A stretch of DNA of 64,000 bases, taken from positions 397,673 to 461,672 of the forward strand of contig CAUYUJ010008047.1 of NCBI GenBank assembly GCA_963575745.1, given 5' to 3'. Positions within the stretch are counted from its first letter, which is position 1, and each line of letters starts with the position of its first letter. The translations under genes and the position numbers were made by a program. Shown here in pieces: positions 5,949 to 51,144 of the stretch. The DNA is from Prorocentrum cordatum. Its lineage: Eukaryota; Sar; Dinophyceae; Prorocentrales; Prorocentraceae. The notes under the pieces are model-generated. The model searched no databases. It was not told the origin of the DNA and saw only the letters and a program-made list of their open reading frames with translations.

Positions 5949-6069
5949 CCGCTGTGCCGCCGTCACCACAAGGAGCCTTCACCCCGTGGCCGCGCAGCAG
6001 CGAGCAAGGGCCGTGCAACAGCAGTGGCGTGAAAGTGAACCGCATCACACACCCTGAGCAAAGGCACAA

Positions 6070-9000: not shown

Positions 9001-10929
9001 AGGAAGTTCAGGGGCAAGCTCACCGACATGGAACCAGGGACCCCCACCAGCATCCCCCCAGAGGTCGGAAAAACGTTTGGACTCAGCTTGGAGCAACGAC
9101 AAGGGGTCCGCCACCACCACTCCGTCCAAGGACAGGGTGGTGGTGGGGACCCATGGCGTCGCTCCTTTGGAAACGGTGTGGACCCTTCGGGCTCCCCGAT
9201 TCACCTTAAACAGTAACCACTCCTTGAACTCTTTCCTGGCAAGCTTCCTAGAGGCAGCCTCAATATTCACAAGCATGTCACGGCACATCTCATGCAAGTG
9301 ATGGAAAAAATCAAGCATTGGGCCGTCTGCTGGCTCGTACATCGGGAGCTCGCGGACGAACTCCTCCAGCGAAGACCTAAAATTCTCCATCTGGCCTAGA
9401 TCAGCGGCGCACTGAGCTGGTGGCTGCTCCAGGCGCTCGAGCACCCGTCCGATGCCAGACTGGTCTCCCACGGTCCAGTAGCACTCGAACTCACTAAAGA
9501 GATTGGTCAGCCACCTAGCAGCAAACAGTGTGCCATCGCCTTTGCCAGAGTCCTTGGACAGCACTGGGCGCCAGCACATTTGGGGAGGCTTACCACGAGA
9601 ACCCCAAACAGGAAGGACCTTACCCGTGGCAGCGGAGACCTCACGCTCGGCAGCATTCGCCCAGTGTTTATAGACCAAGTCAACCGAGTCCTGAACTCGT
9701 TCGAAATCCCCCACCGTCGCCGCTCTACGAGACGAGTCCAGCACATCATGCAGCCACGTCGGAGGCTCACAAGCGGCGACGAGGCACACAGGCGGGAGAG
9801 GCGACGTGGGCAGCGGAGGGGGTTTCCGAAAAGACAAAGCCTGCAACCGCCCGAACTGCGGATGCATGCTAATCCTGACTGGGACATGCGTACAGAGGTT
9901 GGTGTCACGGATGGCCTGCACACTGCTGACCGTCTTGGCCAAGTCAGAGGAGGCAATAAAGAAATCGTACTGCTTAAGACCCGCAACAGATTTCATCGTG
10001 TGACCCTCAGGCACCAGGAACTGGATGCTTTTCTGGTCCCCCAGGCCCCCAGTCAGGAGCTTCTCAGGCTCCATGTTAAAATCCGCGCCCAGGAAAAAAG
10101 GGAAACCGAGGCCCTCCCCCAGGGACAAACACGAACACAAGATATCGATGTTTGAATCCGAGAGGTCCTGGCAGTCATGGAAGTAGGCGGCCATCACCAA
10201 AAACGTGGGCTGCCCAGGCACCTCGACGATGCCTGCCAGAGCCCTCGACGGTATAATGATAGCTCCAGAGTCAGGAGCCCGCAGACCAAGCCCATCACGA
10301 ACAAAGAGAGCGACTCCCGATGACGGGCCTTGACCATCACCAGGCACAGCAGCACTCCATAAACTTTTCCACCCGTGGCGTCTAGCCCAGGAAGAACCAG
10401 GATCGATTTGGTTAGCCAACTGCTTATGCTCCTGCATGATCACGATATCAGCACTAGTCTTCAGCAACCAGAGCTGGCCAGGCCCCCACCCTGAGACATT
10501 GCAGGTTTCAACTGAGGGCGAAAAAGATTCAACAGGAAAAGCATTGGCCTCCATGGGCCTGATCAACTGCACATCGGACCTGGGCGGAACACCAGGCAAA
10601 AGCGGGCCCCTAAGGGTCATAGGTTTCGACGGCCGAGCAGAAACACCATTCGCCAGCAGGGCCCCCTTGGCCCTGGCTAACGCATGCTGAACCGCCCGAA
10701 CGAGAGGGCCACTGTGGGCCCACAAAAAATTAGTATTAGAGACCGCATGTGACTCAGAGGTGCCCTGGGAGATCCACTCAGGGCTGGCCAACACACAGGC
10801 TGCTGTGGGGGAGGTACCCCCTCCGTTGGAAGAAGTCAAAAAATTCTGATCTCGCTGGCTCCCCCCCTCAGGCGCTGTCACCTTTGGGGGGGTCTGATTG
10901 TAAAATCTTGGCTGCACGCGCCTTGGCAT
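6070..10929 (-). CDS. LINE ORF2 polyprotein: endonuclease, reverse transcriptase, zinc knuckle, RNase H
   Basis: Nicks target DNA and reverse-transcribes element RNA (target-primed reverse transcription, known for the family). Taking the ATG at 10929 gives about 1619 aa. Domains, with approximate residues: endonuclease 140-355 (NVSGWG, VIMQEHKQ, FFLGADFNMEPE, YDFFIAS, THVPVRI); RT 690-900 (GFRPIGNFCAIYRAYGKV, motif A LLDLYKYYETID, motif B position GGIIAGCTF, catalytic YIDD near 8300); zinc knuckle CPLCGEAPDTLRHRLWEC near 7250; RNase H with all four acids (FVDGS, QAAEFFAM, IFSDCLN, GNAWAD) near 7020-6620; a C-terminal Cys-rich tail (CATC, CICHKCGYY). Motif B lacks the usual SQG. The same frame is open upstream to 12240, but there it reads ORF1 out of register and is Arg/Ser-rich, so I exclude it. 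The start is uncertain: the ATG at 10929 or a +1 frameshift from ORF1. Confidence 0.9.
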   Translation of the reverse strand: MPRRVQPRFYNQTPPKVTAPEGGSQRDQNFLTSSNGGGTSPTAACVLASPEWISQGTSESHAVSNTNFLWAHSGPLVRAVQHALARAKGALLANGVSARPSKPMTLRGPLLPGVPPRSDVQLIRPMEANAFPVESFSPSVETCNVSGWGPGQLWLLKTSADIVIMQEHKQLANQIDPGSSWARRHGWKSLWSAAVPGDGQGPSSGVALFVRDGLGLRAPDSGAIIIPSRALAGIVEVPGQPTFLVMAAYFHDCQDLSDSNIDILCSCLSLGEGLGFPFFLGADFNMEPEKLLTGGLGDQKSIQFLVPEGHTMKSVAGLKQYDFFIASSDLAKTVSSVQAIRDTNLCTHVPVRISMHPQFGRLQALSFRKPPPLPTSPLPPVCLVAACEPPTWLHDVLDSSRRAATVGDFERVQDSVDLVYKHWANAAEREVSAATGKVLPVWGSRGKPPQMCWRPVLSKDSGKGDGTLFAARWLTNLFSEFECYWTVGDQSGIGRVLERLEQPPAQCAADLGQMENFRSSLEEFVRELPMYEPADGPMLDFFHHLHEMCRDMLVNIEAASRKLARKEFKEWLLFKVNRGARRVHTVSKGATPWVPTTTLSLDGVVVADPLSLLQAESKRFSDLWGDAGGGPWFHVGELAPELPEVPVEAIREFSRRFKINTSVSVDGFHMRHFSFLSDELLRILCGLFAVMELTALIPRQVAITLLTLIPKPASGFRPIGNFCAIYRAYGKVRRPLAQEWEFKNARSFFAAGPFEGAQDVVWRQAVRAETSTLSKDEAATVLLDLYKYYETIDLKLLLWRCKQVNFPLAIARLAIAMYLQARFFVLNGFVDGPFWALGGIIAGCTFATTLIRVYSIASLDMLCIPPQVHFKLYIDDSGLSATGSRRYIVEHLPPVVRALVSILEEGIGAKVSQDVGKRSLIASSKALGRDLAQALGGLAGPLVSSAANLGVDDCVGRPRRVAGRSSKQKKREQKARGFVSRLARLRPLVGARVTKNVFASGALASELFGSEIYGVSDYELLRLRRQAASVLQPSASGRSLTALLLSHGEPCWYASVAPMVRWSKEIWIAHHRTYPHCLSLPELREAWDVGFSGDSPLWRSVSGPITALRKSCERISWSMPSFAVFRTDKGEEVKLTEFSPTLIKNLLRKAVVRGLEWDMGARLNMSGRVCTDGVLSYLQSTKYSAFEKGCLRALFCNAVYTRTRAADLGYQLQNVLCPLCGEAPDTLRHRLWECQCPDVVELRNSIVPIKIQKWASQVDDNLAVFGVFPHPGDVFPAPLDKGGIQVEWAQGEVGDLHSVFAGDMFVDGSCSRYVVKELNRAGWAFTLVDRETGLELVRVRGPVWGPCPQTPQAAEFFAMSIAIQWSTGQCDIFSDCLNVVIFFGMPWMEQISARYMFAGVAQFARPHMHKVTVSKVKAHLAVDEAVDERDRYLRQGNAWADTSAKVAASLHPAPSVAVARAVGRLGARLMSLWPRLDLGKDLERIKPPAKEQAPAKPSHEWHWVGSYWQCATCLRGRRGTFGVEPPGGSCSLALHVHPSVLRDLGHRCVLIDCTDGSFVCICHKCGYYTSGGRLDRLGKKCEPSKRASHCNPWSRLQKGLHPSYNKPGVRVDVNTFCQV

Positions 10930-12133
10930 CAGAACTCGCCGATGGCGCGCCCGTACCGCTTGATGGAGCCGCCGTGGGGGAAGTCGACTCTTGACCAGCC
11001 TCCGGAGCTTCACCACCAGGAGCCTGCGCAGTGGCTGAATGACCCACATGCGGACCATCATCTTCAGCTCCTGCAGCGGCACCTGGTACAAGAACCTTCC
11101 GCTTCTTGCCAGCCAAGCGTGACTTCTGCTCCTCCATCTCTTTACGAACGCGTTCAGCATGAGCCTGCGCGGCACCAAATAGTTTCTTCGCCTGCTTCTG
11201 TATCTCGTCGTTGAGTGTCTTGAGCCGAGCCGCAGCCTCGTTTCTGTCCTCCTCGTTGAGGTCGTAGTCTGCTTCCCACTCCAAAAGGCTGGACATGTCA
11301 ATGGGTAGCGGTTGTCCACCAAGCAGGTCAGAGATGGAGATCTTGACCTCCTGCTTGACAGAGCCCTCGGGGTTCCGAGGCCGATCATCCACCGACTGGT
11401 GCAACTGCTCCACCAGCTCCTTGTGTAGCTTCTCCGAGGCCTCCAACTGCGAAGTAATTGACTCCACATTGGCGCGGGCCTGGACCAGCTCGTTGGAGAT
11501 GCGCTCGAAGGACTCCACCGCTTTGGACAGTCGGGCCTCCAAGCTCCGCATGCTGTGGTACGCCTGGTTGACCTTCTGCTGCAAGGGGGGCTCAACCTTC
11601 TTGGCTGCGGCCATCTCGTCGAGCTTGTGTTGATAACGCTTTGCTGATTCTTCGTCACCCTGGGCTCGCAACAACTGTACCAGTGATGCAATCCGAGTGT
11701 TCTCGTCGGGGGGTAGCTGGGCTCCTCCTGCGCCTGGAACTTGCGGGCCAGGATGAAGAGGAGCAGCACCACCGGGAGACAGCATCGGATTAGCAACCCA
11801 TGTCCCTGGGGGCGGCGGCCCCTGTGCCCACACTCCGCGAGGAGCGGCGGGTTGTTGGAACGATGGTGACGAACGCCAAGCCCAGCAGTGTTTGCACTGC
11901 TGCCAAGCCTGCTTGTTCTTCTTGCAGCCGCAACTCGGACAAGTCCACCTCGATGAAGGTGCATCGCCGTGCTGGGCGCCACCCTTTCCACCGAACGTAG
12001 TACCTGTCTTGCCTCCTTTGCCGAATCCTTTGCCTTTGTTGAAGGACTGGGCATACTGCTGCTGCTGCGCCTCCAGCTGCCAAGGCGGGATCGGCCCTCC
12101 CCAGTTCGCCGCTGCTGGGGAAGGCACAGCCAT
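10868..12133 (-). CDS. LINE ORF1 protein: RanBP2-like zinc finger plus coiled coil
   Basis: Probable RNA-binding chaperone or packaging protein of the LINE, 421 aa. The N-terminus (MAVPSPAAANWGGPIPPWQL) leads into a Gly/Lys-rich stretch at 31-52. A zinc finger at 63-83 has the spacing W-x-C-x2-C-x4-N-x6-C-x2-C, close to the RanBP2 type (WTCPSC, N, CKHC). A Pro-rich linker follows, then helical, charged segments at about 140-255 and 285-355 likely to form coiled coils, and a basic KKRK patch near 350. The frame stays open to 12922, but that extension crosses the SL and a microsatellite. The ATG at 12133, 128 bp after the SL, is therefore the natural start. ORF2 begins in another frame before the ORF1 stop (TGA at 10870-10868). 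Confidence 0.82.
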   Translation of the reverse strand: MAVPSPAAANWGGPIPPWQLEAQQQQYAQSFNKGKGFGKGGKTGTTFGGKGGAQHGDAPSSRWTCPSCGCKKNKQAWQQCKHCWAWRSSPSFQQPAAPRGVWAQGPPPPGTWVANPMLSPGGAAPLHPGPQVPGAGGAQLPPDENTRIASLVQLLRAQGDEESAKRYQHKLDEMAAAKKVEPPLQQKVNQAYHSMRSLEARLSKAVESFERISNELVQARANVESITSQLEASEKLHKELVEQLHQSVDDRPRNPEGSVKQEVKISISDLLGGQPLPIDMSSLLEWEADYDLNEEDRNEAAARLKTLNDEIQKQAKKLFGAAQAHAERVRKEMEEQKSRLAGKKRKVLVPGAAAGAEDDGPHVGHSATAQAPGGEAPEAGQESTSPTAAPSSGTGAPSASSDAKARAAKILQSDPPKGDSA

Positions 12134-12261
12134 CGCACACACAACTGGATGGGTATCGTGGTAGGAAGCGCGGGACTCCGCCCGCAGAAACGAAAAAGGC
12201 TCGCAGGAACGCGGGCCCTTCTGAAGAACTGTTCCTGCAACGCTACTCGAGCGCAGAAGGG

Positions 12262-12283
12262 CTTGAGCCAAAATGGCTACGGA
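12262..12283 (-). other. Dinoflagellate spliced-leader sequence at the LINE 5' end
   Basis: The minus strand reads T followed by CCGTAGCCATTTTGGCTC and AAG, all 22 nt of the DinoSL consensus (D-CCGUAGCCAUUUUGGCUCAAG). SL is normally added to mRNA 5' ends by trans-splicing and encoded in separate SL RNA genes. Here no SL-RNA donor site (GT directly after the AAG) follows, so this is a relict copied from mRNA rather than an SL RNA gene. Confidence 0.93.
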
Positions 12284-12295
12284 AGGCGGGGGGAT

Positions 12296-12408
12296 GAGGA
12301 GAAGCAGGGGGAAGAGGAGGAGGAGGAGGAGGAGGAGGAGGAAGAGGAGGAGGGGGGAGGAGGAGGAGGAGGAGGAACAGGAAGAGGGCGAGGAAGAGGA
12401 GGAGGACG
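12296..12408. repeat. Purine (GGA/GAA)n tract abutting the LINE 5' end, copy 1
   Basis: Imperfect GGA repeats starting about 12 bp outside the SL. A purine microsatellite at a LINE or retrogene 5' junction recurs at 50980 (pyrimidine on the plus strand), which suggests such tracts are common insertion sites or are generated at the junction. Confidence 0.9.
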
Positions 12409-14340
12409 CACATGTGTTCGACCACCGCAGGCGCGCTCGCCATGTCCGCGCCAGGCCAAGCCATGCGCGCGCAGGGGAAAGAGGCGGAGGCGCAAACAGA
12501 GAGGCACAACGAGAACCATGAGAGGAACAAAAAGAGCAGCGGCGGGCATTCCGCACGAGGAGTCCGTTGTCATGAGGCGGGCGCGCGTTCCCACCAAATC
12601 GGACCATCGCGATTCGAGCGAATCGCCCCGCGCGCGCGCCCGAGCCACCGTCGCCACCAAACGACGGGGCCAGCTCAGCAGAGCAACAACACAGAAACAC
12701 AAACAAGGGCGCCCCACAAAAACGGGGACACAGCACAAATAAGACACAACGACGCAGGAGCCTCGAACCGCGTCGGGAACCCGGCACGGGGTGGCTGGCT
12801 AAAAGCAGGCGGCAGCGGCAGGGCGCCGCAAGCGCCTCGAACGCGGGGGGCATGGCGCGGGCGGGCGGGCGCAGATTTCTCGGGGGCGAGCGCTCTAGGC
12901 ACAACGTGCCGCCTGCAAGCATTCGAGCTGAATGCTAAATGCCGGAAAGGGGGGGGGGCAGCGAGCCCAAAGGCGCGCTCGACTCCCTGCGTCGAGGGGC
13001 CGACCGCCGACCCACCGACGGGTCGGCCAAGGAACCGCACTTCGATTTCCAAAAAACAGGGGGCGGCAAGCGCGGGCGCGGCGAAAGAGGCGAGAGGGCC
13101 GGCGGGCAGCTCCTCCCCCAGCCCCAGGCCGCGCGTGAAACGAAGGCACACAAGCAAAGACACGAGCAGGATGAGCAGCAAAAAGCATGGGACAGGAGGG
13201 GGGGCGGCACGGGGCAACAACGAGCAGAAGAGAGAGGGCAGCAAGAGGACCAGACCAAGGGAACCGCGGAGGGCAACAAACCGAAAAGGATATAACGCAA
13301 GCGGACAAGGGCCAGCGCCCACGAGCCACGCATCCGAACCTGGAAGATCACGGCCGGCCTTGAATTCGCCAAGAAATATAAATCTCATACATTCGCAGCC
13401 GTATTCCAGGATCGCCACGAACCTCGGGCAGCAGTCAGCCAACCTTAAGACCCACGAGGGTCGCAAACACTGCCAATCACATGCAGGGGCAGGGGGCCAC
13501 AAGGGAAGGGAACTAAGGGTGCCACAGGAAAACGGGGGAACAGCAAGAGGGGAGGGCCCACAATCTACCCCTGGGGAGGGGGGCAAGGGGGGGCGAGGGG
13601 CGAGGGGGGGCCCACCGAGAACCGAAGCCATACTGAGCGACTAATGCGCTTCCAACACTTCGGGGCGACGGCGAGACAATTGCCTCAACCGCGCCTCGAC
13701 AAATGGAAGTCCTCAAGGACCTAGGATCCCGCCCGACGGGCATTTAGAGCAACCAGAAAATGGCCAATAAAACCACGCCCCACCAGGTCACGAGACCTCC
13801 CTAAACGCGGCCACACGCAGCGAAGCGTCAATGGCCAGACGCCGCCATCCAATTGATCAGACCACGATGCAAGTAGACCGCCACGGGGGGAGGTGCCGAC
13901 GAGGCAACGTTTGAGATTCGGGCGCGCGCGATAATGCCGAAGGTCGTCATCAACAGACCCCTCCGCGTATCCAAGGGCGCAACCTAGCAGAGTGGAATGA
14001 ACGCGGCTCAACGCGCACGTTCCCAGACGCAGTGCCTTGAGGGCGCGCGTCCCACGGTGCGTCGCGCTGTCTTTCTTTGCCTGGCGAAGCCTCGTGGCCT
14101 GCGCCTGGAATCGGCGACCGAAAAACGATCGGGCCCCGCCGCCGCTCGGGTGCCTTTGGGCCCGGGTGCCGATGGGCGCCATGGGGTCGCGGAGGGCGTT
14201 CGACCGCTTTATGGCGTCTTCCTGATTTTCTTTTATACGAAGCTGATTCCTGGGGGCGGGCGCGAGAGCGGGTGCCGAGAAGCTGCCCGCTTCTTGCGGT
14301 CGCCCTGATCCAAGATCCCCCCCACCGAGCCGCGCCCGCC
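12409..14340. other. GC-rich stretch without a supported gene, copy 1
   Basis: Long frames are open on both strands (up to about 410 codons on the plus strand, 318 and 326 on the minus), but they are Arg/Gly/Pro or Ser/Leu/Pro-rich, overlap each other and show no domain. I attribute them to low stop-codon frequency in GC-rich DNA. Confidence 0.55.
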
Positions 14341-14720
14341 CTGTCTGCGGGAAGATGGCAAGGAAGAAGAGGAGGAGGAGGAGGAGGAGGAGGAGGAGGA
14401 GGAGGAGGAAGAGGAGGAAGAGGCGCCGGGGAGGAGGGGGAGGAGGAGGGCCCAGGGAGGAGGAAACAAAAAGGAGGAAGACGAGGAGGACGAGCGACCA
14501 ACGAGGAGGAAGCGGAAGCGGAGACGAGGGGGGGAGGAATGATGGGGGGGCAATAAAGGAGGAAAGGGGGCAGGGGAGGAGGCGGATCGGCCCTGACGAC
14601 ATGAGGACGAGGAGGAGGAGGACATACAGGGACGAGGAGGGATAGTGGCAAGGAGGAGAAGGAGGAATGAAGAGGAAAGGGGGAATGGGGAGGGGAGGCA
14701 ATCAAAAGGATGATAGAACA
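14341..14720. repeat. Purine (GGA)n-rich tract, copy 1
   Basis: About 370 bp of imperfect GGA/GGGA/GAC repeats next to the 3' end of the YR element, with only a short TA tract between. Confidence 0.9.
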
Positions 14721-14787
14721 AAACCAAGGTTGAGGGGGATCAGGATGGAAGCGGAGGGGGGGATAACGAAGCTGCTTACCCGCAAAC

Positions 14788-14788
14788 A

Positions 14789-14820
<32 letters not shown>
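14788..14820. repeat. (AT)n microsatellite directly at the YR element terminus, copy 1
   Basis: AT repeat interrupted once by GT, ending at the base where terminal repeat B2 begins. It may be the target of insertion. Confidence 0.93.
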
Positions 14821-14821
<1 letters not shown>

Positions 14822-14893
14822 GTGTTACCCCATAGCGACGCATTGCGAAGCTTCCCACTCGACGCCGCTGAAATGGATTGGGAGCGCGCCCCC
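14821..14893 (-). repeat. YR element terminal repeat B2, copy 1
   Basis: Outer partner of B1. It forms the 3' terminus of the element, directly against the (AT)n tract. Confidence 0.85.
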
Positions 14894-14912
14894 TGGGAGG
14901 GCGGGGCGGGGG

Positions 14913-15027
14913 CGATGCGAAACCATGAGCACGGGCAACGGGCGAGGCGCGACAAGCTGTGCTACCGTAACCTTTACTCGCGTCACTGAACGGCCACTGA
15001 TACATCATTACTGCGCACGCACGAACA
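14913..15027 (-). repeat. YR element repeat A2, copy 1
   Basis: Internal partner of A1, placed between B1 and B2 with spacers of 23 and 19 bp. Confidence 0.88.
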
Positions 15028-15033
15028 TGCTGT

Positions 15034-15960
15034 TTAACCGCAACAAATAAAATGATATCCCAGAGAGACGCGTTGCGAAGCTTGCCACCAGACGTCACTG
15101 AAATCGATTGCAAGCGCGCCCCGCACCCCATCCAGGAACCCCGCGTTCAGGAACGCGCTGGTTTCGGGCGGGCTGTGGACGGAGACGCCGTAGAACTCAG
15201 CCGAGAAGTATATGGATACGGAACAGTGGTAACGTACTTCCATGCCCACGGCGACCTGAACGCACGTGCCACAGCACGACATAGCTGCGATATAATGTTT
15301 AGTTCGAAACGTATTCCAGCCAGCTGCGTCGACTCCTTCGAGGTGCTCATGAGGCCTACCAACGCGCGACCACATTCCAGCCGTGCCCATGCACTTGCGA
15401 CCCAGGAGCGAGTCGTCAAAATCTGATGGCATGGGGGCGGAGGTCCAATTCCTGAAGTCGGCCCCGAACTGGCACTGGTCAAAAACGATGATAACTGTTT
15501 CCATTGACTTGCTGAGGCGCTCCAAAAACGGCACTGCCCAGAGCATCGAGGACGCTGGATTCTCGATCGCGAGGGGGGCGTTGCACGGCGGGGCTAGCCT
15601 CGCCAGCTTGCATGTTACTTCAGCGAGCCCGTCGCCCCCAAGACACACCTTGCGACCCTTATCCGATAGATGCGAAAGTCCCCAAATACACTCTGCAGAA
15701 CGCGCGGCGCCAGGCAAGGGGCGAAGAACGCGGAGTTCTTCTAGCTATACTGAAGGAGCGGCACGGCGCAAAATAATATTCACTGCGCCTTGCCTTCGCC
15801 CATGAGCCGCATCAGGCCCGGCGCGATGCCTGGCGCGAAGATATTGGCGACCAGCTCGAGCTCGATCTCTAGCGACGGGATGCCGCGCCGTGTCGCGGCT
15901 TTGCCAATGCCTGCCGCGCCTGCAAAGATGCCCAGGGAGATGTCGCCTCTGGCCAGCCAA
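15034..15960 (-). pseudogene. C5-cytosine-methyltransferase-like domain at the C-terminus of the YR element
   Basis: The first piece (frame ending 15780) has SLGIFAGAAGIGKAATRRG, resembling the SAM-binding motif I (F-x-G-x-G). After a gap in coding sense, the second piece (15717-15034, 227 codons open) has GAARSAECIWGLSHLSDKGR, then PLAIENPASSMLWAVP (15590-15530), where ENP corresponds to the motif VI ENV. FDQCQFGADFRNWTS and CMGTAGMWSRVGRPHEHLEG follow. The Pro-Cys nucleophile motif IV, expected between the pieces, is not visible and was probably lost. The end of the frame runs into B1. I am confident this is a conserved domain of the element. That it descends from a DNA methyltransferase is an inference from motifs I and VI. 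Confidence 0.62.
15051..15123 (-). repeat. YR element repeat B1, copy 1
   Basis: Aligns without gaps to 14821-14893 (offset 230) at about 80 percent identity, sharing TTGCGAAGCTT and AGCGCGCCCC. It overlaps the 3' end of the methyltransferase-like reading frame. Confidence 0.85.
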
Positions 15961-16059
15961 GCGGTCGGGGCGCGATGACCTTGTCTAAGGGGACGTCGCC
16001 GGGCTGCTCGCTGCAGCGCAGCAGGGGCCCCTGGACGTTCGGCGGCAGGTCCACCAGCT

Positions 16060-16955
16060 GGGCGTTGATATTGCTCGACTTCTCGCGTCTGGCGAGCGAG
16101 CTGGCGCTGGCCCAGCGCCCGCGCCCCTGGACCTCCAGCTGCGACCTCCCGCCAGTGAGCGCGTCCCAGGACGGGCCCGCGCGCCGCGGGCCGCGCGGCG
16201 CAGTGCCGAGCGCCGAGCTTCTCCAGGTGGCGCAGCTTCGCCGCCTTCGCGACGAGGTTGCCCAACTCCCACGAGATCAACGTAGCGGCGGACCCTTCGG
16301 CCGCTTGCCTCTGCGGTTCCGCTCGAGAAAGCTGCCTAGGAACTGCGAGTTGTTGTGGTCGAGCACCACGTTGTCGTCGCAGACGCCCGTCTTGGTCGGG
16401 CTCCCGTCGTCGTCGGAGGGCGCTAGGGTGAGGGGCCAATTCTGGCAATCTCGGCCAGGCCCAAGTGAGGGCGGGGCGACGTCTCGAACGCGGAGACCGC
16501 AACTCCCCCGGCCGCGAGTGGGCGCCGAGCGCGACCACTGAGACCGCCACATTCACATCCGTTCGGCCCACAAGGTGCAGGGCCACAGCCAACCCGCAGA
16601 TGGTCGGACATGGCCGAGGTAGCCGACCCCAATCTGGTCGCCGTCGCCCCCGCGCCTTGAGGGGCCTCTCGGACCTGGCGAGCGGCTAGGCGCTGGGCCT
16701 CTGGAGGAGGCTCGGGTAAAAGTGCAGGGCGGCAGCCTTCAGCTTCTCGCCGTCGCGCATCTTCCTGCCCGCCAGGTAGGCGCGGCCCGCCCGCCACGGC
16801 AGCGCCCCCCCCCCCAGGACGTCCAGGCTGTTCTCCTTCAAGCCCTGGGGGCGGGCGTGCTCCAAGAACTCCGCGACGCGCCTGTTGCAGTCCTCGACCT
16901 GGGAGGGCTTCGCCGCGATGCTCTCCGGGCAGGAGATCCCCCCGCTGCAGGCTGA
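16060..16955 (-). pseudogene. YR element tyrosine recombinase with catalytic residues lost
   Basis: Would integrate the circular cDNA by site-specific recombination. An N-terminal core-binding-like part (NRRVAEFLEHARPQGLKEN, AGRAYLAGRKMRDGEKLKAA) spans 16910-16690. SPTKTGVCDDNVVLDHNNSQ follows near 16410-16350, then the C-terminal catalytic part AGPSWDALTGGRSQLEVQ and GRGRWASASSLARREK (16180-16079). In the family the first reads LRHxGxSxD and the second ends R-Y-x-K. Here the LRH position reads PRR, and the tyrosine position (codon 16087-16085) is CGC, Arg. The nucleophile is therefore gone in both copies, and a stop and frame changes separate the pieces. Confidence 0.68.
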
Positions 16956-17249
16956 ACGCTGGGCGACAGCCAGCCTCGCTGAGGTTGGGGCTCGCGACCT
17001 CCGCGAGCCGCCGCGATGCGAGGCTGGCGCCGCAGGCGGACGGGGCAGAATCGGCAACCCGGATGGCCCTGGAGCGCCGCCCGCCAGCGGGGGCGCCCCG
17101 CTCGCCCGGCGGTCGCCAAAGCGGCCAAGTGGCAGCGCGGCCGTCACCTCCAGGCGCCCGGCCCCGTTGCGCGCCACCACTCCGGGAGAGGGCCCCCGTC
17201 TCACAGCGGGCGCCCTCGTCGCAACGCCAGGCGCCAGGATGAACGAGCC

Positions 17250-17954
17250 CAGGGGGAGGGCGCCATGGGCGACCCAGCGGCCAGAGTGCAAGTTCCCAAA
17301 CGCGCGGAGGCCGATCGGCAGGATTGACCTGGGACGGGACCCATCGGCAATGGGCCCGTAGTCCAGTGGCCAGCTGAAGGGCGGCGACCTGTCTGAGCTG
17401 GCCCAACAGAGCGGGGCCCCTGCACCTGCCCTTCTGCGTCGCAAGCACCAGGCCCGCGTCGTCCACGAGCAGGAGCACCGTTCTGTCGCCAGCGGCTGCA
17501 GCGCACCACGCGCTTGACGCCCAGCTTGACACCGCGCGCTTCATTGGCATGGGCGGCTCCTTCATTCATGTCCGCCACGCGGCCGTTTTGCCACAACGGC
17601 CCACTTCGCATCAGCAACCGATGTAAGGTTGATGTCAAGGAACCCGTGGCATGCCAGCCAGACAGGCTCCCCATCGCCCTGGATGATGTTGCGGCCACTC
17701 TCGATGGGGGGCTCGCCCAGCTCGTGGCCAGCCAGGGCAATTTCCCGGCGCCTGCGATTTGGGTCCTTCTTGAACCGCCGGCGCTCGCCCATGCGCCCCG
17801 TGAGCCGAACATCATCTGGACCCCGCGCAGAAACGCAGACGCCCGGGCCAGTCTGGCTGGCGTCGCAACACCTTGCCCAGCCAGCCTGCCCCGAGGTCCG
17901 TGTATCCAAGAGGCAAGATGGCCGCTGCGACGAGTAGCCCCCGCGCGACGCTCG
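17250..17954 (-). pseudogene. YR element RNase H domain
   Basis: Would degrade the RNA strand of the RNA/DNA hybrid. After the RT comes CCDASQTGPGVCVSARGP (17910-17860), where DAS carries the first catalytic Asp. A frame change leads to EARGVKLGVKRVVR, then TVLLLVDDAGLVLATQKGR, then RWVPSQVNPADRPPR (17350-17304). This last block is the signature end of the DIRS-type RNase H. Some acidic positions are preserved, but the segments lie in different frames, so no continuous enzyme is encoded. Confidence 0.68.
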
Positions 17955-18126
17955 GCCAGATGCCCCCGGCCTCGCCCCCTGCGGACTCCGCGAGGCATGG
18001 CAAGCAGGGCTGCCGCGAGAGGAACGCGAAGAACAGGCGACCCAGCACTGCCCGCATCTCCCTCCCAGCGCAGTGGCCGCGCCGCACGAGAGCGCGAAGC
18101 CCTGCACGGAGCCTCCGCGATCGCTG

Positions 18127-18184
<58 letters not shown>

Positions 18185-18990
18185 TCGCTCGCCGCTCCCC
18201 GTCCAGGCGGGCGCCGGCGATGTCGAGGGAGGTGCTGACCTGCTCGATCTCGTGGACCTGGAAACCCTCCTTCCGCGCGCCCGGGAGCGCCCGTCCACGC
18301 GGCTATTCCACTTCGGCTCTGTCGCAGCCGACCACTCCGAAGTTGTCGAGGCACGCCGCGCGAACGGCCCCATCCCCCAAGCTTGGCGGCGGCGCGCCGT
18401 AAATGCGCGGGGTAGATGAGATCCCGCGGGCCGACCTCGATCCCGTCGATGCCCCGCGCCCCCGGAGGCGACGCGCGGGCGGGTGGCGGGGCGAAGTGCC
18501 GCGACAGCTCCTCGTCGATCCTTAGCTCGTGGAAGTAGTCCTTGACGTCGAAACTGGCCGAGTAGACGACCTGGCCCCGGCTCGTCTCCAGGTGGCTGAG
18601 GGGGCCCCCAGTAGCAAGCTGAATGGCATCTGGGATCTCGACGCGGGCGTTGCTCCAACGTGCGCCGCGCATGAGTCGTGGATCACACTCTTTCTGCGAA
18701 CAAAGAACGGCCCGGACCTCCATTTGCAAGTTCGAATCCGCGCGAAGTTTCAGACGATAAAACCCCCCAACTTCGCCGGGCGTGCCGCCAGCACCAGGTC
18801 AAAGTGCAGGTTGGGCGGCCCCTCATCCCTGATGCGCAATGCATGCCCCTCTTGCCCGTCTTCGCTGAAAAGAACGGCGGTGCGAAACCGCTTGAGCTTG
18901 CGCGACGCCGCCCTGGGCGCGACGCTGTAGACGCCCCCCCCCCCCCCGCCAGGTCGCGACTCGGCAGCGAAGCGGAAGCCGAGCCAAACG
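17955..18990 (-). pseudogene. YR element reverse transcriptase, interrupted by (TC)n
   Basis: DIRS/LTR-type RT rather than LINE-type. In order: RWSNARVEIPDAIQLATG, then motif A SFDVKDYFHELRIDEELS (18555-18505), which keeps the catalytic Asp. After a frame change comes motif C, CLDNFGVVGCD, with LDN codons at 18350-18339 in place of the more usual YVDN. ARKEGFQVHEIEQV and LDGERRAI follow. A TAG lies shortly after motif C. At 18181-18130 a (TC)n expansion splits the thumb, which resumes as RAGLRALVRRGHCAGREM, AVLGRLFFAFLSRQPCLP and ILPLGYTDLGAGW. At least three frame changes and one stop make it inactive. Confidence 0.72.
18130..18181. repeat. (GA)n / (TC)n microsatellite inside the YR element RT, copy 1
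   Basis: Twenty-six uninterrupted GA units, lying between two RT thumb blocks. The tract has exactly the same length in the second copy (33710-33761). Confidence 0.95.
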
Positions 18991-19409
18991 GCGCAATGCC
19001 CCCAGCGCGCTCGCTGTCACCATAGCGAGTCTGCACGCAGGGGCGCCGCGAGGGCTTCTTGCGGGGAGGGCCGCTCCCTCGGCACGGGCGCAGCGGCAGC
19101 GGCATCTCGGGCCAGCGCAAGAGCAGCCCGCGTTTGCCCGCCCCCTGGCCCGCCCGGCGCCGCGCTGCCGACGCCCCCCCGCAGAGCGCTCGTCGATCCA
19201 AGCGCGCTGCTGATGCGCTGTCGGACTCCGCGACTGAGCGGGCTGCGAGGGCCCTCGCAATCGCGGCGCCGAGGCAAGGGCAGCGGGCCCCGCAAGCGAC
19301 CGCAGGACACGCCCCGAACACGACTGCGCCGCTGCCCCCGGAGAGGATGTTGGCAAGAGGGCGGCCCGCTGAGGGCCGCGAAAAGGGGGGGGGGGGGGGG
19401 CGGGGCGAC

Positions 19410-20567
19410 TAGCCCTTCCTCGCAAGGGCTGCCTCCTCGCGGGCCTTGCGTCGATCCTTCTGGATCTGTGCCTCGCCCTGCACCTGAAGCGCCGCGCGCG
19501 AGGTGGGCTGCGGCGCAATGGCCGCGATATTCTTGTCGAGCCCCTGAAACTACCCGCCCCCTCCGAACCTCGGCGGCTTCGGGTTGGCGGCGCAGGCTTC
19601 CTCCAGCGGCTGAACCCCGCGCGACAGCAGCTCGAGGCTCGCCAGCGCTGATACGTCCAACTGGTCGTGCGCGATGGCCCGCCCCAGGGTCTCCATGAGG
19701 CTGCCGCGCCCATACTTGACTCCGTCATTGTCTGGCACGCGGGCGCCGCGCATTCACTTCTCTGTCCTGGTGCGAGGATCGCAGCCTTGGTCGCGGATGA
19801 ACTTGCGCAACCACAAGGTCGTCCTCGGCCCCTGGATGGGGAAATCCCTCCACGTCGGCTCTCCCAGCGGGCCTGCGCCGCCATTGCGCGGTCGGGCGGC
19901 GCTGGCCCATCTGGTCACGCAAGATGGGCAGCACTCGAACATCCGCCGATCGCACTCCGCCCTAGTCGAGCCCCGAGGCGGCCGACCCGGGTGGGCCGGC
20001 GATGGCCGTCGCCAGGCCTCCAGCAGCAGGGGCGGTCGCGACCGCCAGCTCGAGCTCCTTCTTCCTGCCCTCCAGGTAACTGCCCTCGCTGCGCGCGGCG
20101 ATGGGCCCCAGCGCGAGCGTGGCCGACCCAAGCTTGGCGAAGGCAAACTTACCCTGGATGACGGCGTTCGCGCCCGCGCTCCAATCCTGTCCGGCCACGC
20201 CAGGATCAGTCGCCCCGGCGCGATCGGCCTCGAATCGGCAACGCACGCGCCGCAGCCCAGCGCCCCAGATGGCTCCCGCGCAGCAGCCAGCCGCCAACCC
20301 CGCGAGGCCCGCGCCGATCACGGCGATGAGTCACCATCCGCTGAGGCCTGCCGCCGCCACCGGGCAGCTGACTCCGGACAACTCGGGCAGGCCGCGCCCC
20401 TGAGCGTGCGAGGCGGGGAATGCAGGGCATGGCGCGCCAGGTGCGGCGAGAGCGCGCAGTCGGGGCAGGCGCGCTCGCTCTGCCCAGCCCGCGCGAGAGA
20501 AGCGGTGCCCGCGGTCCGCGCAGTCCCGCGCAACGTCCACCAGCACGTCGCCGAGCCGACCAGACAT
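19410..20567 (-). pseudogene. YR element N-terminal region: Cys cluster, possible TM segment and conserved helical region
   Basis: First comes a Cys-rich patch (CPDCALSPHL, CPSCPE, frame near 20450-20360). A hydrophobic segment (GAGLAGLAAGCCAGAIWGAG, near 20310) may be a membrane helix. A longer conserved block follows: GPRTTLWLRKFIRDQGCDP at about 19830-19780, then RGARVPDNDGVKYGRGSLME, HDQLDVSALASLELLSRGVQ, and a basic QIQKDRRKAREEAALARKG ending at 19410. I know this order from the N-termini of dinoflagellate YR-element polyproteins; its function is unknown to me. Two in-frame stops interrupt it: TGA at 19756-19754, where a Trp codon would fit, and TAG near 19551. Ribosomes would therefore not produce the full protein. 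Confidence 0.6.
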
Positions 20568-20623
20568 GCACGGCCGCTAGCCAGCGGGCGGCGGGCAGCG
20601 CGCAGAGCCTTCGGAACAACAAA

Positions 20624-20738
20624 AAGCGATGGGCCATGAACGCGGGCGACGGGCGAGGCACGCTATGCATTGCTACCTTCGCCCTCACTCGCGTCGCTGA
20701 ACGGCCCCTGATACATCATTACTGCGCACGCACGAACA
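20624..20738 (-). repeat. YR element terminal repeat A1, copy 1
   Basis: Aligns without gaps to 14913-15027 (offset 5711). The outermost 31 bases, from CTGATACATCATT to CACGAACA, are identical; the inner part is roughly 75-80 percent identical. Confidence 0.88.
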
Positions 20739-21400
20739 GGATGCAAAGGAGGAGGGCGCGAAGGAGGGGCGAGGCAGGACGAGGAAGGAAGGGGCGTAGG
20801 AGGCCCCGCAAGTCACGCAAATATGCTCCGAAGAGGGCTTCAACGCCGACCAAGGAAGCCCCGAAACGGCCCTGATGGGCCCCCAACGCGGCCCCAAGAA
20901 GGGCTCAGAGGGAACGCCAAGCATCCCTGGGAACTTTTTCAACGCAACCTAACCTCGCAAAGCCCCCGAGCCCCAAGATCTCCAAGGCCCCCGAGTGGCA
21001 CCCCATGGGGCCCCAAGAGGGCTGATCCGAGATCTGAAAATGCCAACGAGCTCGCCCGAAGACTACTAAATATTCAAAGTCTCGAATCACACAGGTAGAA
21101 TGTTTGGCCGAGCCCCCCCCAGGCGGTATGCTTCGCTCGCGCGAATGCCATAAACATATCAGAGAGCGACATGTCAAAACTGAACAACAAGGTGATGCGT
21201 GGGCAGCGGAGGGAAGCGTCGGGAGTCTGAGAAGCGTGCCGACCCAACGAATCATCGTCGTAGTGGCCACCGTCGTCGTCATTGCTGTCACCGCCATCGT
21301 CATCGCCGTCACCATCCACCATCACCGCCCCCTTTGCGTTCCAACCCCTGCTCCTACATTTTCCTCCAACTCACTCAGAATGACCGTCCATCTCGCCCAC
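20739..21400. other. Flank of the YR element: Pro/Gly-type minisatellite fragment and CGT-rich tract, copy 1
   Basis: From 20860 to 21030 there is CCCCAAG/GGCCCC-type degenerate repeat resembling the larger array at 51.6-52.5 kb. At 21248-21320 an imperfect GTC/ATC trinucleotide tract follows. No gene is recognisable. The sequence stops at the gap. Confidence 0.6.
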
Positions 21401-21500
21401 NNNNNNNNNNNNNNNNNNNNNNNNNNNNNNNNNNNNNNNNNNNNNNNNNNNNNNNNNNNNNNNNNNNNNNNNNNNNNNNNNNNNNNNNNNNNNNNNNNNN
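21401..21500. other. Assembly gap (100 N)
   Basis: Exactly 100 N, a conventional placeholder of unknown true size. Both edges coincide with edges of the duplicated block. Confidence 0.99.
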
Positions 21501-21596
21501 CCGCTGTGCCGCCGTCACCACAAGGAGCCTTCACCCCGTGGCCGCGCAGCAGCGAGCAAGGGCCGTGCAACAGCAGTGGCGTGAAAGTGAACCGCA

Positions 21597-24500
21597 TCAC
21601 ACACCCTGAGCAAAGGCACAATTAAACCTGACAAAACGTATTGACATCCACCCGCACTCCTGGTTTATTGTATGACGGGTGGAGGCCCTTTGGAGACGAC
21701 TCCAAGGATTACAATGCGAGGCCCGTTTCGAAGGCTCACACTTCTTACCTAGGCGATCAAGCCGGCCCCCCGACGTGTAATAACCACATTTGTGGCAAAT
21801 GCAAACGAAACTACCATCCGTACAGTCTATGAGCACACATCTATGCCCTAGATCACGAAGTACTGACGGGTGCACATGCAAAGCGAGCGAGCATGACCCA
21901 CCAGGAGGTTCGACGCCAAACGTGCCACGACGACCACGCAAGCACGTAGCACATTGCCAATACGAGCCTACCCAATGCCATTCATGTGAAGGTTTCGCAG
22001 GAGCCTGCTCTTTAGCAGGTGGCTTGATTCGCTCTAAATCTTTGCCCAAGTCTAATCTAGGCCACAAAGACATTAATCTAGCACCCAAACGTCCTACAGC
22101 TCGGGCCACGGCCACGGAAAGATCCAGGCCCTCACGCAGCTCGTCCGACGGGGCAGGATGCAAGGATGCCGCAACCTTGGCCGAGGTATCAGCCCACGCA
22201 TTGCCCTGTCTTAAATAGCGATCCCTTTCGTCGACCGCTTCATCGACAGCAAGATGGGCTTTCACTTTGGATATCGTGACTTTGTGCATGTGCGGACGAG
22301 CAAACTGAGCCACGCCGGCAAACATATACCTGGCTGATATCTGCTCCATCCAAGGCATCCTGAAAAAATTCACAACATTTAAACAGTCCGAAAAAATGTC
22401 ACACTGGCCTGTGCTCCACTGAATGGCGATAGACATGGCAAAAATCTCGGCTGCTTGTGGAGTCTGGGGGCATGGCCCCCAAACTGGTCCTCTGACTCTC
22501 ACTAATTCAAGCCCAGTCTCCCTGTCAACCAAAGTGAAGGCCCAGCCAGCTCGGTTCAATTCTTTCACAACGTAACGCGAACACGATCCATCCACGAACA
22601 TGTCTCCAGCGAACACACTATGAAGGTCCCCAACCTCTCCTTGGGCCCACTCCACCTGAATACCACCTTTATCCAACGGAGCAGGAAAACATCACCCGGG
22701 TGAGGAAACACCCCAAAGACAGCCAAGTTGTCGTCCACCTGGCTCGCCCACTTCTGGATCTTTATGGGCACAATCGAGTTCCTTAGTTCGACTACATCAG
22801 GACACTGGCATTCCCACAATCTATGGCGGAGCGTGTCAGGCGCCTCGCCACACAGCGGGCACAGCACGTTCTGCAGCTGGTAGCCTAGGTCTGCCGCACG
22901 CGTACGAGTGTACACCGCGTTGCAAAAAAGCGCCCTCAGACAGCCTTTTTCAAAGGCAGAATACTTCGTGCTCTGGAGATAACTAAGGACCCCATCAGTG
23001 CAAACACGCCCAGACAAGTTCAGACGAGCCCCCATGTCCCACTCGAGACCTCTCACAACAGCTTTGCGAAGCAGATTCTGAATCAAAGTAGGCGAGAACT
23101 CCGTCAATTTAACCTCCTCACCCTTGTCAGTTCTAAAAACAGCGAAGGAAGGCATGGACCAGGAAATCCGCTCACATGATTTCCTCAACGCCGTGATCGG
23201 CCCCGAGACCGACCGCCACAAAGGGGAGTCTCCCGAGAAACCAACGTCCCAGGCCTCCCTGAGTTCGGGGAGCGAGAGACAGTGGGGGTAGGTCCGATGG
23301 TGAGCAATCCATATTTCCTTCGACCATCTGACCATCGGAGCGACCGACGCATACCAACACGGCTCGCCATGCGAAAGAAGAAGAGCCGTCAGCGATCTTC
23401 CAGACGCTGATGGTTGCAAGACTGACGCCGCCTGGCGCCGCAATCTCAACAGCTCGTAGTCGCTCACACCATATATTTCGGATCCGAAAAGCTCCGAGGC
23501 CAAAGCTCCCGAGGCAAAAACGTTTTTGGTCACACGGGCCCCAACCAGAGGCCTCAAGCGGGCCAAACGGGAAACAAAACCACGAGCTTTTTGTTCACGC
23601 TTCTTTTGCTTCGAGCTCCTACCAGCAACACGTCTAGGGCGTCCCACACAATCATCCACTCCTAGGTTCGCCGCTGAACTGACTAAGGGGCCAGCCAGGC
23701 CACCTAGTGCCTGAGCGAGATCACGCCCAAGCGCCTTAGAAGAAGCGATCAAGGATCTCTTTCCCACATCTTGACTCACCTTAGCTCCGATCCCCTCCTC
23801 CAGAATAGAAACCAAGGCTCTGACCACCGGTGGCAGATGCTCCACAATGTATCGCCGCGACCCCGTAGCACTGAGGCCAGAGTCGTCGATATACAACTTA
23901 AAATGCACCTGTGGCGGAATGCACAGCATGTCGAGGGAAGCAATCGAGTACACTCTGATCAACGTGGTGGCAAACGTACACCCCGCGATGATTCCCCCCA
24001 AGGCCCAGAAGGGCCCATCCACAAACCCGTTCAACACAAAAAACCGAGCCTGAAGATACATCGCAATCGCGAGCCGAGCGATCGCGAGGGGGAAATTCAC
24101 CTGCTTGCAACGCCACAGGAGCAACTTGAGATCAATAGTCTCACCATATTTGTAAAGATCGAGCAGGACCGTTGCGGCTTCATCCTTGCTCAAAGTCGAG
24201 GTCTCCGCACGAACCGCCTGTCTCCACACCACGTCCTGGGCCCCCTCGAAGGGCCCAGCCGCGAAAAAACTCCGAGCGTTTTTGAACTCCCACTCCTGGG
24301 CCAGGGGCCTCCGCACCTTACCGTAAGCACGGTAAATCGCACAAAAATTCCCAATCGGGCGAAAACCAGAAGCTGGTTTCGGGATCAACGTAAGGAGAGT
24401 GATGGCCACCTGTCTCGGTATCAGCGCCGCGAGCTCCATCACGGCAAACAGACCACACAGAATTCTGAGCAGCTCATCACTCAAGAAAGAGAAATGCCGC

Positions 24501-26509
24501 ATGTGAAATCCGTCGACGCTGACAGAAGTGTTGATTTTGAAACGCCTGGAAAACTCACGTATCGCCTCCACAGGAACCTCAGGAAGTTCAGGGGCAAGCT
24601 CACCGACATGGAACCAGGGACCCCCACCAGCATCCCCCCAGAGGTCGGAAAAACGTTTGGACTCAGCTTGGAGCAACGACAAGGGGTCCGCCACCACCAC
24701 TCCGTCCAAGGACAGGGTGGTGGTGGGGACCCATGGCGTCGCTCCTTTGGAAACGGTGTGGACCCTTCGGGCTCCCCGATTCACCTTAAACAGTAACCAC
24801 TCCTTGAACTCTTTCCTGGCAAGCTTCCTAGAGGCAGCCTCAATATTCACAAGCATGTCACGGCACATCTCATGCAAGTGATGGAAAAAATCAAGCATTG
24901 GGCCGTCTGCTGGCTCGTACATCGGGAGCTCGCGGACGAACTCCTCCAGCGAAGACCTAAAATTCTCCATCTGGCCTAGATCAGCGGCGCACTGAGCTGG
25001 TGGCTGCTCCAGGCGCTCGAGCACCCGTCCGATGCCAGACTGGTCTCCCACGGTCCAGTAGCACTCGAACTCACTAAAGAGATTGGTCAGCCACCTAGCA
25101 GCAAACAGTGTGCCATCGCCTTTGCCAGAGTCCTTGGACAGCACTGGGCGCCAGCACATTTGGGGAGGCTTACCACGAGAACCCCAAACAGGAAGGACCT
25201 TACCCGTGGCAGCGGAGACCTCACGCTCGGCAGCATTCGCCCAGTGTTTATAGACCAAGTCAACCGAGTCCTGAACTCGTTCGAAATCCCCCACCGTCGC
25301 CGCTCTACGAGACGAGTCCAGCACATCATGCAGCCACGTCGGAGGCTCACAAGCGGCGACGAGGCACACAGGCGGGAGAGGCGACGTGGGCAGCGGAGGG
25401 GGTTTCCGAAAAGACAAAGCCTGCAACCGCCCGAACTGCGGATGCATGCTAATCCTGACTGGGACATGCGTACAGAGGTTGGTGTCACGGATGGCCTGCA
25501 CACTGCTGACCGTCTTGGCCAAGTCAGAGGAGGCAATAAAGAAATCGTACTGCTTAAGACCCGCAACAGATTTCATCGTGTGACCCTCAGGCACCAGGAA
25601 CTGGATGCTTTTCTGGTCCCCCAGGCCCCCAGTCAGGAGCTTCTCAGGCTCCATGTTAAAATCCGCGCCCAGGAAAAAAGGGAAACCGAGGCCCTCCCCC
25701 AGGGACAAACACGAACACAAGATATCGATGTTTGAATCCGAGAGGTCCTGGCAGTCATGGAAGTAGGCGGCCATCACCAAAAACGTGGGCTGCCCAGGCA
25801 CCTCGACGATGCCTGCCAGAGCCCTCGACGGTATAATGATAGCTCCAGAGTCAGGAGCCCGCAGACCAAGCCCATCACGAACAAAGAGAGCGACTCCCGA
25901 TGACGGGCCTTGACCATCACCAGGCACAGCAGCACTCCATAAACTTTTCCACCCGTGGCGTCTAGCCCAGGAAGAACCAGGATCGATTTGGTTAGCCAAC
26001 TGCTTATGCTCCTGCATGATCACGATATCAGCACTAGTCTTCAGCAACCAGAGCTGGCCAGGCCCCCACCCTGAGACATTGCAGGTTTCAACTGAGGGCG
26101 AAAAAGATTCAACAGGAAAAGCATTGGCCTCCATGGGCCTGATCAACTGCACATCGGACCTGGGCGGAACACCAGGCAAAAGCGGGCCCCTAAGGGTCAT
26201 AGGTTTCGACGGCCGAGCAGAAACACCATTCGCCAGCAGGGCCCCCTTGGCCCTGGCTAACGCATGCTGAACCGCCCGAACGAGAGGGCCACTGTGGGCC
26301 CACAAAAAATTAGTATTAGAGACCGCATGTGACTCAGAGGTGCCCTGGGAGATCCACTCAGGGCTGGCCAACACACAGGCTGCTGTGGGGGAGGTACCCC
26401 CTCCGTTGGAAGAAGTCAAAAAATTCTGATCTCGCTGGCTCCCCCCCTCAGGCGCTGTCACCTTTGGGGGGGTCTGATTGTAAAATCTTGGCTGCACGCG
26501 CCTTGGCAT
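21597..26509 (-). pseudogene. LINE ORF2, copy 2, frameshifted
   Basis: Same protein as the ORF2 at 6070-10929, with a handful of substitutions (for example motif A LYKYGETID instead of LYKYYETID, and AEIFAM instead of AEFFAM in RNase H). A missing A in a run (GGAAAACATC against GGAAAAACATC, near 22687) breaks the frame between the zinc knuckle and RNase H. A missing T near 21690 changes the last residues. Relative to copy 1 there is also a net 30-bp in-frame insertion near 22120-22150, adding about ten residues (DELREGLDLS) after the RNase H. Copy 1 may have lost these, or they may be the ancestral state. EN, RT and zinc knuckle are intact. Confidence 0.88.
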
Positions 26510-27713
26510 CAGAACTCGCCGATGGCGCGCCCGTACCGCTTGATGGAGCCGCCGTGGGGGAAGTCGACTCTTGACCAGCCTCCGGAGCTTCACCACCAGG
26601 AGCCTGCGCAGTGGCTGAATGACCCACATGCGGACCATCATCTTCAGCTCCTGCAGCGGCACCTGGTACAAGAACCTTCCGCTTCTTGCCAGCCAAGCGT
26701 GACTTCTGCTCCTCCATCTCTTTACGAACGCGTTCAGCATGAGCCTGCGCGGCACCAAATAGTTTCTTCGCCTGCTTCTGTATCTCGTCGTTGAGTGTCT
26801 TGAGCCGAGCCGCAGCCTCGTTTCTGTCCTCCTCGTTGAGGTCGTAGTCTGCTTCCCACTCCAAAAGGCTGGACATGTCAATGGGTAGCGGTTGTCCACC
26901 AAGCAGGTCAGAGATGGAGATCTTGACCTCCTGCTTGACAGAGCCCTCGGGGTTCCGAGGCCGATCATCCACCGACTGGTGCAACTGCTCCACCAGCTCC
27001 TTGTGTAGCTTCTCCGAGGCCTCCAACTGCGAAGTAATTGACTCCACATTGGCGCGGGCCTGGACCAGCTCGTTGGAGATGCGCTCGAAGGACTCCACCG
27101 CTTTGGACAGTCGGGCCTCCAAGCTCCGCATGCTGTGGTACGCCTGGTTGACCTTCTGCTGCAAGGGGGGCTCAACCTTCTTGGCTGCGGCCATCTCGTC
27201 GAGCTTGTGTTGATAACGCTTTGCTGATTCTTCGTCACCCTGGGCTCGCAACAACTGTACCAGTGATGCAATCCGAGTGTTCTCGTCGGGGGGTAGCTGG
27301 GCTCCTCCTGCGCCTGGAACTTGCGGGCCAGGATGAAGAGGAGCAGCACCACCGGGAGCCAGCATCGGATTAGCAACCCATGTCCCTGGGGGCGGCGGCC
27401 CCTGTGCCCACACTCCGCGAGGAGCGGCGGGCTGTTGGAACGATGGTGACGAACGCCAAGCCCAGCAGTGTTTGCACTGCTGCCAAGCCTGCTTGTTCTT
27501 CTTGCAGCCGCAACTCGGACAAGTCCACCTCGATGAAGGTGCATCGCCGTGCTGGGCGCCACCCTTTCCACCGAACGTAGTACCTGTCTTGCCTCCTTTG
27601 CCGAATCCTTTGCCTTTGTTGAAGGACTGGGCATACTGCTGCTGCTGCGCCTCCAGCTGCCAAGGCGGGATCGGCCCTCCCCAGTTCGCCGCTGCTGGGG
27701 AAGGCACAGCCAT
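26448..27713 (-). CDS. LINE ORF1 protein, copy 2
   Basis: Essentially identical to the ORF1 at 10868-12133: zinc finger with RanBP2-like spacing at residues 63-83 and the same coiled-coil regions. A single visible change, Ser to Ala in NPMLSPGG/NPMLAPGG, comes from a C/A difference at 27359. Same overlap with ORF2 and same leader to the SL. Confidence 0.82.
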   Translation of the reverse strand: MAVPSPAAANWGGPIPPWQLEAQQQQYAQSFNKGKGFGKGGKTGTTFGGKGGAQHGDAPSSRWTCPSCGCKKNKQAWQQCKHCWAWRSSPSFQQPAAPRGVWAQGPPPPGTWVANPMLAPGGAAPLHPGPQVPGAGGAQLPPDENTRIASLVQLLRAQGDEESAKRYQHKLDEMAAAKKVEPPLQQKVNQAYHSMRSLEARLSKAVESFERISNELVQARANVESITSQLEASEKLHKELVEQLHQSVDDRPRNPEGSVKQEVKISISDLLGGQPLPIDMSSLLEWEADYDLNEEDRNEAAARLKTLNDEIQKQAKKLFGAAQAHAERVRKEMEEQKSRLAGKKRKVLVPGAAAGAEDDGPHVGHSATAQAPGGEAPEAGQESTSPTAAPSSGTGAPSASSDAKARAAKILQSDPPKGDSA

Positions 27714-27841
27714 CGCGCACACAACTGGATGGGTATCGTGGTAGGAAGCGCGGGACTCCGCCCGCAGAAACGAAAAAGGCTCGCAGGAACGCGGGCCCTT
27801 CTGAAGAACTGTTCCTGCAACGCTACTCGAGCGCAGAAGGG

Positions 27842-27863
27842 CTTGAGCCAAAATGGCTACGGA
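27842..27863 (-). other. Dinoflagellate spliced-leader sequence, copy 2
   Basis: Exact 22-nt match, the duplicate of 12262-12283, with identical flanks. Confidence 0.93.
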
Positions 27864-27875
27864 AGGCGGGGGGAT

Positions 27876-30368: not shown

Positions 30369-30400
<32 letters not shown>
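27876..30400. other. Microsatellites and GC-rich filler between LINE and YR element, copy 2
   Basis: Duplicate of 12296-14820: purine tract at 27876-27988, GC-rich DNA without a supported gene to 29920, purine tract 29921-30300, (AT)n 30368-30400. I saw no difference from copy 1. Confidence 0.6.
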
Positions 30401-30401
<1 letters not shown>

Positions 30402-33400: not shown

Positions 33401-33706
33401 CCCCGCGCAGAAACGCAGACGCCCGGGCCAGTCTGGCTGGCGTCGCAACACCTTGCCCAGCCAGCCTGCCCCGAGGTCCGTGTATCCAAGAGGCAAGATG
33501 GCCGCTGCGACGAGTAGCCCCCGCGCGACGCTCGGCCAGATGCCCCCGGCCTCGCCCCCTGCGGACTCCGCGAGGCATGGCAAGCAGGGCTGCCGCGAGA
33601 GGAACGCGAAGAACAGGCGACCCAGCACTGCCCGCATCTCCCTCCCAGCGCAGTGGCCGCGCCGCACGAGAGCGCGAAGCCCTGCACGGAGCCTCCGCGA
33701 TCGCTG

Positions 33707-33764
<58 letters not shown>

Positions 33765-51071: not shown

Positions 51072-51143
<72 letters not shown>

Positions 51144-51144
51144 T

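Follow-up and report, generated by a model that had tools for sequence, protein, structure and literature searches.

The window analysed here is a 64-kb stretch of Prorocentrum cordatum DNA (64,000 nucleotides of contig CAUYUJ010008047.1; G000:C8047:397673-461672), taken from an assembly of 4.13 Gb in 21875 contigs, and it carries a decayed tyrosine recombinase (YR) retroelement framed by split direct repeats. Along the minus strand the order is A1, coding region, B1, A2, B2 (Table 1). The A pair aligns as a direct repeat of 110 bp at an offset of 5711 with 84% identity, its outer 31 bp being identical, and the B pair as one of 76 bp at an offset of 230 with 80% identity. The best local scores, 74 for A and 46 for B, lie far above the highest values (16 and 14) from 500 first-order Markov resamples per pair, so both pairs exceed chance. 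An earlier reading made from the letters alone (the sequence-only reading) had proposed these two independent pairs, placed in Ngaro/PAT order around reverse transcriptase (RT), RNase H and YR sequence, and both the repeats and the order of the domain remnants bear it out. Its 5' end at 20738 also stands, but its 3' end at 14821 is off by about 50 bp: a (TA)n tract starts near 14821 within B2, and the final part of B, TTGTTTGCGGGTAAGCAGC (B1 equivalent TTGTTGCGGTTAAACAGC), follows that tract, so B2 ends near 14771. The element therefore spans 20738..14771, about 5968 bp. Two inverted pairs are listed in 14000-21500, one of 71% and one an AT palindrome; neither frames the element, and inverted or long terminal repeat (LTR) termini were rejected.

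Table 1. Features of the element copy in the window, in 5' to 3' order of the element
Feature	Position	Strand	Evidence
A1 repeat; element 5' end at 20738	20623..20738	-	direct-repeat alignment; length of 116 from young family
Reverse transcriptase remnant, several frames	17947..18815	-	tblastn with RT of P0004 and P0011
RNase H remnant	17302..17943	-	tblastn
Tyrosine recombinase (YR) remnant, two frames	16010..16922	-	tblastn; predicted fold of homologous L027 domain
Cytosine-5-methyltransferase-like remnant	15391..15947	-	tblastn with pieces of P0004 and P0013; predicted fold of homologous L027 domain
B1 repeat, abutting A2	15028..15122	-	direct-repeat alignment
A2 repeat	14912..15027	-	direct-repeat alignment
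B2 repeat, (TA)n tract inside; element 3' end near 14771	14771..14893	-	repeat alignment

The RT, RNase H and YR remnants lie in that order between A1 and B1 with broken frames, and tblastn finds the same order in other copies. Pfam returned no RT, RNase H or YR match for ten open reading frames (ORFs) of the window, nor for the long open frames of copies L009, L011, L012 and L014; the domains were placed through the relatives P0004 and P0011, and a weak match to Pfam RVT_1 was seen only in P0011 and P0013. In L009 and L011 a single frame covers RT, RNase H and the C-terminal portion of YR. A YR profile run against PDB matched best an uncharacterised protein, 3hiu (E 7.5e-05), with XerD second (E 0.0043). 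A regular expression for a Gag zinc finger, a mark of the Pat1 subgroup, was applied from A1 to RT in nine entries; L018 and the window each had a single match that looks like chance, and the other seven had none.

The RT active site is itself distinctive. A motif pattern found it in 11 of 22 entries searched, and in ten of these (L009, L010, L013, L014, L017, L021, L022, L024, L025 and L027) it reads [CY][VI]DN, not YxDD; L011 reads VGY. An asparagine at this second place is unusual for an RT. The same [CY][VI]DN occurs in four relatives, P0009, P0011, P0012 and P0013, of which P0011 is from Symbiodinium. Viral contigs scanned with P0011 held no relative.

Downstream of YR lies a domain, overlooked by the sequence-only reading, that escapes Pfam and is predicted from its modelled structure to have a cytosine-5 methyltransferase fold, the best fold matches including DNMT3A (matches within 1 Z are tied). 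Its sequence profile had a single PDB match, DNMT2, at E 0.4; when the YR and methyltransferase-like pieces were compared with PDB sequences as single queries, no meaningful match emerged. Relative to YR, the methyltransferase-like domain lies in the -1 frame in 14 of 15 copies (at about 16010-15947 in the window). In the eight copies examined this frame continues upstream for 120 codons or more without a stop, six of them having no ATG there, and a slippery heptamer X_XXY_YYZ was found in the tested frame of the YR/methyltransferase overlap in none of 13 copies. The frame step could reflect a separate ORF, conserved frameshifting, or a mini-intron (about 56 nt) flanked by short direct repeats. 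Homologues of the YR (P0021) and of the methyltransferase (P0038) each lie on a contig of 6410 bases from the same source, which hints that the two domains occur together in another organism.

Other copies were located with queries inside the element. A 131-bp query inside the window A1 gave 40 scored matches among 88 candidates, a lower bound, and many A matches in the assembly are paired at 5.3-6.4 kb. The conserved ends and the similarly spaced A and B pairs that the sequence-only reading expected of other copies were found. Across the family, young copies included, A measures 116 bp (the length at which A2 matches stop) and B 92 bp; B1 lies directly against A2, with 17 bp between A2 and B2. 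Identity between A1 and A2, available for 12 entries (11 other copies and the window), is 100% in L009 and L010, 97-99% in L011-L015, 95, 91 and 89% in L017, L016 and L028, and 85% in L018 and the window. The window copy, also broken in frame, is therefore old; its nearest relatives are on C17478 and C21299. L018, of the same subfamily, is enlarged by an imperfect simple repeat of about 2 kb (about 6790-9020) between the methyltransferase-like domain and B1, with open frames rich in S, L, P, Q and A.

At 33 places we could read 30 left flanks and 25 right ones (another four right ends are wholly or mostly N); of the 27 contigs listed with A matches, the analysis covered 22, C9130 and the window's own among them, all but C18098, C20610, C17311, C5587 and C2961. 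Taking at least 8 GAT among 20 triplets as dense, in-phase GAT passes in 24/30 left and 18/25 right flanks, against 55 of 127876 window positions on both strands; counted in any phase, it passes in 23/30 and 19/25, and 30 of the 33 places have dense GAT on at least one side. The remaining three are C21299 and C21318 (6/20 each, one flank) and the window copy. No flank has more than two ATCATC, so the GAT strand is the element's own. To the left of A1, at eight loci, the signal falls from 90/160 test windows in the first 200 bp to 17/240 at 200-500 bp and 0/1200 at 500-2000 bp. Within the window, tracts of four or more GAT occur only at 51034-51192, where a (GAT)n array (ATC on the plus strand) sits between CCT-type tracts with no match to the A repeat, possibly an empty target.

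The joints are equally regular. With a slash marking each boundary, the typical left joint is GATGA/TGAGAG, i.e. GATGA/TGAGAGTG, the typical right joint ATCGTCA/TGATGATG, and the internal B1/A2 joint ATCGTCA/TGAGAG, i.e. ATCGTCA/TGAGAGTG. Left flanks end in TGA in 25/30 cases and in GATGA in 23/30. Right ends could be placed to the base in 21 of 25 (not in C14178, C17478, C16594 (B2 not found) or the window); all 21 right flanks begin with TG, and 17 with TGATG. When left and right flanks are joined, the GAT register is kept in 18 of 19 places, the exception, C17086, having an indel inside the right array. A target-site duplication of 1-15 bases is excluded in 7 of the 19. That younger copies sit in GAT runs at the same base each time suggests that the recombinase targets the GAT repeat; the window copy alone would not have revealed this.

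We conclude that the window element is very probably a decayed member of a family of PAT type (DIRS order) in which the recombinase inserts circular complementary DNA into (GAT)n arrays. Reverse transcription would yield a circle whose B/A joint equals the internal B1/A2 joint (ATCGTC-ATGA-GAGTG), and the YR would then cross this joint with the array (GATG-ATGA-TGATG) within the shared ATG(A) core. The products would be a left end GATG-ATGA-GAGTG and a right end ATCGTC-ATGA-TGATG; the target would not be duplicated, and the array would stay in register on either side. The left, right and internal joint sequences are what such an insertion predicts, from one conservative exchange. The repeats, ends, joints and domain order are observed and the YR fold is predicted; the circle, the strand exchange and the reading of the array by the recombinase itself are inferred.

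Several observations weigh against this conclusion. The copy that we started from has 0 and 0 of 20 GAT triplets at its two sides, and empty sites were not seen. At the eight loci, GAT scores again in 54/1950 test windows at a distance of 2-4.5 kb to the left of A1, so arrays are not rare near copies, although they are densest at the junction; the control for background is a small one, a single 64-kb window. A duplication in multiples of 3 bp would be hidden by the array in 12 of the 19 places. The left and right arrays of one copy have no more variant units in common than shuffled pairs do (mean correlation -0.04, a value reached in 3587 of 5000 shuffles), so it is register, strand and core that speak for the splitting of single arrays. 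Finally, the histidine usual beside R242 in the homologues is an arginine in the family domain examined.

Among alternatives, we regard as unlikely a PAT-type element that needs only a short ATG-like core, with the arrays grown later by slippage from the ATGATG at its ends. The absence of shared variant units would fit this, as would the left flanks without an array at C14795, C18122, C2698 and C20211. However, many flanks consist of imperfect arrays that extend for tens to hundreds of bases and keep a single register across both sides; ATGATG-like sequence follows each of the 21 precisely placed right ends; the array at 51034-51192 has no adjoining A repeat; and arrays also stand beside copies whose A repeats are 97-100% identical, leaving little time for growth by slippage. 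Still less likely is that there is no target choice and that widespread insertions are lost except where they fall in neutral microsatellites: GAT arrays could plausibly be such neutral ground, but survival does not account for a constant strand and register or for the identical base position at the two joints. That the GAT tracts are the element's own ends, as in simple-repeat-tailed elements, is very improbable even though they flank most copies on both sides, because tract length and units vary between copies and the internal B1/A2 joint, the expected copy of the outer joint, contains no GAT, which assigns the arrays to the target.

The whole element is present twice in the window, a point missed by the sequence-only reading, with the second copy at +15580 inside a 99.9% identical duplication. 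The duplicated stretch of 15.6 kb (5949-21400 and 21501-36980) matches over 6566-21400 versus 22147-36980 at 99.89% (15 mismatches in 14835) and over 5949-6567 versus 21501-22118, and a gap of 100 N at 21401-21500 falls exactly between the halves; it looks like an assembly duplication. Each half also has, on the minus strand (6070-12276 and 22565-27856), an open frame, of 2068 and 1763 amino acids respectively, that by eye resembles a polyprotein of the long interspersed nuclear element (LINE) type.

On comparison with known systems we rate the family as PAT-type. The presence of RT and RNase H (placed by relatives) together with YR agrees with the DIRS order, as does the lack of a target-site duplication, excluded in 7/19 places and, for multiples of 3, hidden in 12/19. 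Split direct repeats are known in Ngaro (PMC8547959), VIPER (PMC6681497) and PAT (PMC4157794). The A1-coding-B1-A2-B2 arrangement, a methyltransferase domain and YR are shared with PAT and Toc3 (PMC4157794), the domain here being, by its model fold, of cytosine-5 and not adenine type. Ngaro has A1-[ORFs]-B1A2B2 with RT, RNase H and YR (PMC8547959) but is described as lacking a methyltransferase (PMC4157794); because a methyltransferase-fold domain follows YR here, Ngaro fits less well than PAT. In DIRS1 the methyltransferase is of N6-adenine type and precedes YR (PMC3537659), unlike the cytosine-5 fold after YR seen here. TATE of trypanosomatids is likewise a YR retroelement with a fixed insertion point within short tandem repeats, in its case telomeric hexamers (GGG^TTA; PMC6681497), whereas the flanks here are interspersed trinucleotide (GAT) arrays. 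Endogenous nimaviruses are mobile DNA that encodes a YR and lies in short tandem repeats, (TAACC)n, but they are large DNA viruses, not retroelements, and that repeat is of telomere type (PMC10871703).

A close likeness is SymbioDIRS-Dnmt3 of Symbiodinium, also from a dinoflagellate, with RT (poorly fitted by Pfam), RNase H, YR and a cytosine methyltransferase (PMC5890265). A figure legend of that paper gives its repeats as 'A-coding region-B-A-B', so the earlier belief that no dinoflagellate family with split direct repeats had been described was wrong, and a YR element of this kind is already known in this host group. SymbioDIRS-Dnmt3 carries Dnmt3 within the Pol frame and encodes YR in an ORF of its own, whereas here the methyltransferase-like domain follows YR in the -1 frame; the passages of PMC5890265 consulted mention no GAT or microsatellite target. 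A term search of the main text of a dinoflagellate genomics review (PMC11453091) did not return DIRS. Among open-licence papers on YR elements and microsatellites or simple repeats, on dinoflagellate DIRS and on dinoflagellate retrotransposons with trinucleotide repeats, judged by titles, the openings of abstracts and selected passages, none came up that describes YR retrotransposons in interspersed trinucleotide or GAT arrays. Two features we rate as new: the targeting of GAT, and a methyltransferase-like domain placed after YR.

It is therefore probable, in our judgement, that dinoflagellates harbour a YR lineage with a recombinase specific for interspersed (GAT)n, in which the ATG/ATGA core of the circle's B/A joint would match the array and scattered arrays would act as one dispersed attachment site, the same elements carrying a cytosine-5 methyltransferase after YR by way of a -1 frame step or a tiny intron. 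Site choice of YR retrotransposons is little documented in the literature surveyed. Since outer ends, internal joint and target share one readable core, the circle-and-recombination model for split direct repeats becomes testable on sequence. The family also links a large dinoflagellate genome's microsatellites with a mobile element, for which the arrays may serve as a harmless landing place.
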